Shown piece by piece: positions 49,221 through 50,635 of a stretch of 64,000 nucleotides of DNA. The notes under the pieces are model-generated. The model had not been told where the DNA came from, did no database searches, and saw nothing but the letters and a program-made list of their open reading frames with translations. The position numbers and the translations under genes are program-made. The first letter of the stretch is position 1, and every line of letters begins with the position of its first letter. The stretch comes from Desulfarculus baarsii DSM 2075 (GTDB taxonomy: Bacteria; Desulfobacterota; Desulfarculia; Desulfarculales; Desulfarculaceae): the NCBI RefSeq assembly GCF_000143965.1, contig NC_014365.1, positions 3,003,501 through 3,067,500 of the forward strand, read 5' to 3'.

Positions 49221-50054
49221 ATGAAAAAAATCGGTTTGGCTCTGGGCGGCGGCGGGGCCAAGGGCCTGGCCCACCTGCTGATGCTGGAAGCCCTGGATGA
49301 AATGGGCCTCAAGCCGGCCTGCATTGCCGGGGCCAGCATCGGCGCGGTCTTCGGCGCGGCCTACGCCTCGGGCGTGGGCGTGGGCCGCATCCGCGAGGCG
49401 GTCGACGAACTGCTCTCCAAGGACGGCGTGCGCCTGCGCGAGCTGATCTTCACCCGCGACGGCCGCCGGTTGCTGGAGTTTTTCGAGCCGGCCCTCAAGG
49501 GCGGCGGCGTGTTGCGCGGCGAAAATTTCATGGCCTATCTCATGGAAAACATCCCCGCCGATTATTTCGAGGACCTGGAACTGCCGCTGAAGGTCGTCGC
49601 CGCCGATTTCTGGAGCCGCGAGGAGGTCGTCTTCGGGTCCGGCCCGCTGGGCCCGGCCATCAGGGCCAGCATGGCCATACCCTGGCTGTTCCAGCCGGTG
49701 CGCATGGGCGAGTTGCTGCTCATCGACGGCGGAGCGGTCAACCCCCTGCCCTACGACCTGTTGCAGGGCGAGTGCGACATCACCATCGCCATCGACGTCA
49801 TGGGCAGCCGGCCCCACCCCGGCAAGGAAAAGCCGGGCATGCTCGACTATCTGTTCAACACCTACCAGATCATGCAAAAGAGCATCGTGCGCCAGAAAAT
49901 GCGCGTGCGCCGGCCCGACGTCTACATCGACGTGGACGTGGCCGGCGTGCGGGTGATGGAATTTTTCAAGGCCGGCGAGATCTACCGCCAGGCCATGCCG
50001 GCCAAGGAGCGCCTCAAACGCCAACTCGGCCGCCTGCTGGACACCGACCGCTAA
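49221..50054 (+). CDS. Patatin-like phospholipase (RssA type)
   Basis: A Ser-Asp dyad lipid hydrolase of 277 aa. Oxyanion loop LALGGGGAKGLAHL, nucleophile in AGASIGAVFG (Ser about 38), catalytic Asp in LLIDGGAVNPLP (about 170), and WLFQPVRMG before it. No signal peptide. These cytoplasmic or membrane-bound proteins hydrolyse phospholipids or thioesters; the physiological substrate is not known. GACGGAGACG precedes ATG 49221. The TAA overlaps the stop of the selenoprotein gene on the other strand. Confidence 0.9.
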   Translation: MKKIGLALGGGGAKGLAHLLMLEALDEMGLKPACIAGASIGAVFGAAYASGVGVGRIREAVDELLSKDGVRLRELIFTRDGRRLLEFFEPALKGGGVLRGENFMAYLMENIPADYFEDLELPLKVVAADFWSREEVVFGSGPLGPAIRASMAIPWLFQPVRMGELLLIDGGAVNPLPYDLLQGECDITIAIDVMGSRPHPGKEKPGMLDYLFNTYQIMQKSIVRQKMRVRRPDVYIDVDVAGVRVMEFFKAGEIYRQAMPAKERLKRQLGRLLDTDR

Positions 50055-50353
50055 AGCGCGCAGGCCGAATGGCCGGACACGCCATGGACCTTCAGCCAGC
50101 GCAGCCGCCAAAAGCCGCCCAACGAAACGCGCGCCGCCGGCCCCACTTGCAGCAGGCCCATGTGGGCGTAGATCTCCAACCCGTCCTCAACGGATTTCAA
50201 ATAACGGCTTTTCCAGTCGGCCGGCGGCGGTCCGGGCGCAGCCTGCGCCCCGGGATTGCGGCCTCAGCCGCCGCCCCGCGTGGGGTCGACGATCAGGCTG
50301 CCGCCACGCTCGATGATCCATTGCCGGGCCTCGGGGTCGATCTGAAAGTTCAT
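50051..50353 (-). CDS. Candidate selenoprotein (UGA read as selenocysteine), 100 aa
   Basis: ATG 50353 has two GGAG motifs upstream (best at 6 nt) and a TATACT -10 candidate (plus 50386-50391). The frame runs 29 codons, meets TGA at 50264-50266, and stays open for 70 more codons to TAG 50051-50053. The N-terminus reads FQIDPEARQWIIERGG and SLIVDPTRGGG, then the UGA; the rest has YLKSVEDGLEIYAHMGLLQ and VSLGGFWRLRWLKVHGV. The two halves together resemble the small HesB-like or CC/Se-motif selenoproteins (helix with A..I...GG, a Cys/Sec-Gly motif, then a VY strand and a final L.V.G strand). A SECIS-like hairpin follows the UGA. A pseudogene with a nonsense codon is the alternative. Converges with the patatin gene with 4 nt of overlap. 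Confidence 0.7.
50232..50253 (-). promoter_or_regulatory. Candidate bacterial SECIS hairpin
   Basis: On the minus strand, 11 to 32 nt after the UGA, a 9-bp GC-rich stem with one bulged G closes a 3-nt loop GGC. Two G residues start the apical loop, 20 nt from the UGA. This meets the bSECIS rules of a G in the first loop positions and 16-37 nt spacing. The high local GC makes chance stems possible. Confidence 0.55.
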
Positions 50354-50440
50354 GCTCCGCTCCGCGAAGGTGTATCTTTAAACAGAGTATAACCCCGGAT
50401 TATCGGCCGCGCCCATGCCGGCGCGCCAAAAGGCGGCAAA

Positions 50441-50635
50441 ATGACGATGGATCGACAAACGCTGCTGGCCCGGCGCGAACAATGCGCCCAGGAGCTGGCC
50501 GAGGCCCGGGCGGCCATGCCCTTTCATTCGGCCCGGCCCTGGCAGCTCGAACGCCTGGAGCGGGCCGAGGAAGAGCTGGCCGAGGCCGAGCGCCTCCTGG
50601 CCCAGTGCGCGCAAGAGGCCTCGGACGCCAAATGA
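50441..50635 (+). CDS. Small coiled-coil hypothetical protein
   Basis: A protein of 64 aa, almost all one charged helix (LLARREQCAQELAEARAAMP, LERLERAEEELAEAERLLAQ), probably a coiled coil. AAGGCGG lies before ATG 50441; a second ATG follows two codons later. No family is recognised. It could be spurious, but start signals and composition are plausible. Confidence 0.5.
   Translation: MTMDRQTLLARREQCAQELAEARAAMPFHSARPWQLERLERAEEELAEAERLLAQCAQEASDAK

Follow-up and report, generated by a model that had tools for sequence, protein, structure and literature searches.

A predicted selenoprotein gene of the CC/Se motif family with an A-type carrier-like fold in Desulfarculus baarsii

To our knowledge, the CC/Se motif family of selenoproteins (NF041239) has no known function. 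It was first predicted in Moorella thermoacetica and is included in a 2026 review (PMC13188914). The A-type carriers IscA, SufA and HesB have the ligand motif C-Xn-CGCG (PMC5471300) and are represented below by E. coli IscA (1r94/1s98), SufA (2d2a) and holo IscA (1x0g). The HesB-like selenoproteins (TIGR01911; NF038090) are small UGA-containing proteins with a UxGP motif and a Cys-rich tail.

We analyzed a stretch of 64,000 nucleotides from Desulfarculus baarsii DSM 2075 (NC_014365.1, positions 3,003,501 to 3,067,500), here called the window, and found in it a gene that compares with all three. Like the NF041239 family, its product is about 100 residues long, gives a full-length match above the curated cut-off and has its predicted selenocysteine (Sec) at the first-Cys position of the CC motif; unlike that motif, it has Gly rather than Cys after Sec and carries a Cys three residues from the C-terminus. 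It resembles IscA, SufA and HesB in its predicted fold, in the placing of Sec30 at the first-cysteine loop position and in having a Cys in the C-terminal tail. However, its sequence identity to IscA is about 8-19%, it does not match Pfam PF01521, and it has a single C-terminal Cys in place of the CGCG tail. With the HesB-like selenoproteins it shares the small size, the UGA, the same predicted fold and the alignment of Sec to Sec, whereas their UxGP motif and Cys-rich tail are both missing. The selenoprotein family is one already catalogued, and the window gene is an added member of it. The features discussed below are as follows (window positions).

50051..50353, minus strand: predicted selenoprotein gene of the CC/Se motif family (NF041239), 100 residues with Sec30; ATG start, TAG stop, profile match
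50354..50366, minus strand: purine stretch GGAGCGGAGC 5′ of the ATG, resembling a ribosome-binding site, read directly
50264..50266, minus strand: predicted Sec-UGA codon (codon 30); 20 relatives have Sec-UGA at the aligned position and 4 have Cys
50228..50244, minus strand: bacterial SECIS hairpin GGGCGCA-GGC-UGCGCCC, apical loop starting with G, 20 nt after the UGA
50060..50062, minus strand: codon of Cys98, which lies third from the C-terminus and may be the partner of Sec30; present in 19/19 Sec copies of the bacterial family

An earlier note on this DNA had proposed an overlooked selenoprotein gene on the minus strand, and its ATG, TGA and TAG are all where it had placed them. The frame opens at ATG 50353, meets TGA at 50266-50264 and continues for 70 sense codons to TAG 50053-50051. 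A ribosome-binding-like GGAG lies 5′ of the ATG (gcggagcggagcATG). With the UGA read as Sec (U), the translation is MNFQIDPEARQWIIERGGSLIVDPTRGGGUGRNPGAQAAPGPPPADWKSRYLKSVEDGLEIYAHMGLLQVGPAARVSLGGFWRLRWLKVHGVSGHSACAL. The convergent neighbor on the plus strand is a patatin-like gene (PF01734, 49221-50054), and the two genes share four bases at their stop codons (50051-50054). The gap from the end of the patatin ORF at 50054 to the start of the next ORF at 50441 is 386 bp, the length given in the earlier note. Naive ORF calling, which takes TGA only as a stop, loses genes such as this one. Current annotation pipelines may well annotate it, because NCBI has a curated model of the family. Among the 484 window TGAs that have an upstream in-frame start, 91 are flanked by 29 or more codons before and 70 or more after. 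The length of the frame is therefore no evidence on its own in such GC-rich DNA, and the case must rest on conservation.

With the UGA read as Cys or Sec, the protein matched NF041239 at 45.5 bits (cut-off 40; E 6.2e-12), and residues 1-92 aligned with positions 1-91 of the 91-position model. The homology thus spans the UGA, in agreement with the proposal that both halves form one protein. Searched from the DNA with the stop read through, the score was 40.0, equal to the cut-off of 40. The window locus was the only NF041239 match in the whole genome. In our search of the window's class, the family was found in 17 of 63 genomes at 20 places, 19 of which have exactly one in-frame TGA; the exception (L022) has Cys-Cys. 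The family is rare in a phylum sample of 394 genomes (14 genomes), and the motif of its distant members reads Cys-Cys, Cys-Ser, Sec-Cys (L033) or Sec-Sec (L038). When 26 members are aligned, the Sec30 column holds 21 TGA codons (in 19 copies, which come from the window's genome and 16 others, and in two distant copies), four Cys codons and one gap, with no other residue. Synonymous change exceeds non-synonymous change downstream of the UGA, as it does upstream. For the part after the UGA, for example, dN was 0.063 and dS 0.439 in the pair L014/L017, and 0.417 and 0.749 in the pair L005/L020. Pfam has no family for the protein, the one match from a profile search against PDB sequences was a chance one, and no relative was present in plasmid records.

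The hairpin proposed by the earlier note, 20 nt past the UGA and with a G opening its apical loop, is present (GGGCGCA-GGC-TGCGCCC in the DNA). The published limits for bacterial SECIS elements are a loop of 3-9 nt, a stem of 4-16 bp, a G in the first two loop positions, a distance of 16-37 nt from the UGA to the loop and an energy of at most -7.5 kcal/mol (PMC13188914). The window hairpin, with a loop of 3 nt (GGC), a stem of 7 bp, a distance of 20 nt and an energy of -12.0 kcal/mol, lies within all of them. By itself, it sets this TGA only mildly apart: of all TGAs in the window, 8.9% come with a hairpin that obeys these rules at an energy of -7.5 kcal/mol or lower, and 2.3% with one at -12.0. 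The general folding z-score of the region, taken as a single sequence, was -1.4, little above background. An Rfam scan of 50000-50450 found nothing, which is no surprise, since coverage of short bacterial SECIS elements is poor there.

The relatives are more informative. In 17 of the 19 copies, the hairpin lies within the published limits and its loop is 17-20 nt past the UGA; in L012 and L018, a gap-free stem does not reach the required energy. Across the 19 copies, 88.7% of the stem cells are paired and double changes occur at five of the seven pairs. None of 500 shuffles was as high, and slid partners were only 35-56% paired. In the outer stem, GG stands opposite wherever the 5′ side reads CC (CCG, Pro), and CC stands opposite wherever it reads GG (GGG, Gly). 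The change on the 3′ side sits partly in the wobble base of a conserved Pro codon. These matched swaps, together with the wobble-base change, argue that the RNA pairing is maintained, and not just the protein. Relatives conserve the protein on both sides of the UGA, the UGA codon and the hairpin, and this puts the case far above chance.

The genes selA, selB, selC and selD, which the earlier note had suggested looking for, are all present in the genome. SelB was identified by its PF09106 winged-helix domain, SelA by a match of 607 bits and SelD by one of 376 bits; the tRNA-Sec (selC) has the anticodon UCA. SelD seems to be a selenoprotein itself (L040, C1:3511511-3512437, minus strand), with a UGA near its N-terminus (ARAAGUAAKI). 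Outside the window, a second UGA-containing gene with the HesB fold (L059:1426-1758; C1:3107876-3108130, minus strand) belongs to IscA_HesB_Se (NF038090, 125 bits, motif SGGUGGP). It adjoins a Cys-Cys paralogue, L060, so that Sec and Cys versions lie side by side. The in-frame UGAs of SelD and L059 indicate that this genome recodes UGA at other loci too. A lack of homology across the UGA, homologues with neither Cys nor Sec at its place, and a genome without selB and tRNA-Sec had been named as grounds for rejecting the idea; none of these was found.

We therefore consider the locus a genuine gene for a 100-residue selenoprotein of the CC/Se motif family with an A-type carrier fold, whose UGA at codon 30 is read as Sec, and put the probability of this reading at about 0.93. 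In the cell, SelB with Sec-tRNA-Sec would be held at the SECIS hairpin just downstream of the UGA, and for that reason the ribosome would then read codon 30 as selenocysteine. If instead a former Cys codon had turned into TGA by mutation or sequencing error, the product would end at residue 29. In favor of this, TGA is one base from both TGC and TGT, and a product of 29 residues would be useless. However, 19 copies, spread over the window's genome and 16 others, share this TGA with two distant ones, the part after it is under purifying selection, the hairpin covaries and the Sec machinery is complete. This conservation refutes a pseudogene or error as a general account, and we regard it as very improbable here. 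Long frames around a TGA are common in this GC-rich window, as counted above, so the frame might also be a chance ORF antisense to the plus-strand ORF 49772-50392 (206 aa). That ORF starts with GTG, overlaps the patatin gene out of frame and has no support. A chance frame would also not explain a full-length match to a curated family, conservation in 17 genomes of the class search or the synonymous-biased change in relatives. The homology refutes a chance ORF, which we hold to be even more improbable than a pseudogene.

The fold was predicted with AlphaFold2 from 26 sequences of our own loci (mean pLDDT 85.6, pTM 0.75). In a Foldseek search of solved structures with this model, ranks 1-10 were taken entirely by A-type carriers and related proteins (SufA, IscA, HI1723, AQ_1857, DsrR and YneR). 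The best match had a modest E of 2.5e-3 and a probability of 1.00; below rank 10, all probabilities were under 0.05. VIA-align superposed the model on E. coli IscA with a Z of 8.5 over 84 residues at 2.9 A. In hhalign, Sec30 fell on the Sec or Cys of the genome's two HesB-like proteins (L059 and L060; E 1.7e-4, probability 49%). The model thus places the protein in the IscA/SufA/HesB (A-type carrier) fold. In it, Sec30 is predicted in the loop after the second strand, at the first-cysteine site of A-type carriers, and Cys98 in the C-terminal tail, at the site of their cysteine pair. The position of Sec30 corresponds to the first cysteine of the ligand motif in IscA (PMC5471300). By sequence, the models TIGR01911 and NF038090 gave no match, and NF041239 was the only one to match, even at E up to 10. 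The earlier note had likened the protein to CC/Se or HesB-like selenoproteins. The first is right by sequence; since the top ten structures are all A-type, the second holds at the level of the predicted fold, but not as membership of the HesB-like sequence families.

The predicted active site departs from both the CC pair and the C-Xn-CGCG motif. The second Cys of the CC pair is absent, and Gly31 follows Sec30. This Cys is missing in 18 of the 19 Sec copies of the bacterial family, most of which still pass the NF041239 cut-off, so the model does not require it. All 19 have a Cys near the C-terminus (ACAL, ACSF, SCAF and alike), which is mostly missing from the distant Cys-type members. Without the full C-Xn-CGCG motif, Sec30 and Cys98 alone are left as candidate ligands. 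They probably act together, either as a redox pair or, like the cysteines of A-type carriers, as ligands of a metal or cluster. The most likely job, at somewhat less than even odds, would be that of a selenolate/thiolate metal or iron-sulfur carrier, or of a redox variant with a Sec30-Cys98 selenenylsulfide. We know of no experimental demonstration of selenium use in cluster or metal handling.

Alternatively, the protein might be no carrier but a small thiol/selenol oxidoreductase or peroxidase, with the A-type fold as a scaffold, Sec30 attacking and Cys98 resolving. Sec usually serves in redox catalysis (PMC13188914). The loss of the second Cys together with the constant C-terminal Cys would fit such a pair, as would the two potential ligands that are left, against three in A-type carriers. 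However, the known members of the A-type fold carry Fe or [2Fe-2S], a dimer could make two ligands per chain enough, and no gene for a catalytic partner or substrate was found nearby. We take the oxidoreductase as a serious contender that falls a little short of an even chance. As for how the site arose, a lineage-specific remodelling of the CC/Se site is conceivable but rather doubtful; it would have replaced a vicinal Cys pair by Sec and a distant C-terminal Cys, giving a relative of the A-type carriers that is ligated through Sec and Cys or forms a selenenylsulfide. The neighborhood was also searched for clues to function; shared neighbors were found only in small subgroups (3-6 loci), none of them family-wide.

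With this locus, the CC/Se motif family gains a well-supported member whose SECIS element covaries, and the fold match ties this family to IscA/HesB, which leads to the testable idea of a bound ligand. Two further observations concern its relatives. The distant phylum member L038 (L038:1471-1788, minus strand), which comes from another taxonomic family of the phylum, carries two in-frame TGAs side by side, precisely where the CC motif lies (TGUUVK), which might encode a Sec-Sec pair. At 26 bits, this member scores under the family cut-off, and a search for a SECIS element at this locus gave no clear hairpin. Two genomes, G042 (L006/L023) and G054 (L007/L024), have two Sec copies each, and the copies of each genome lie on different branches of the tree.
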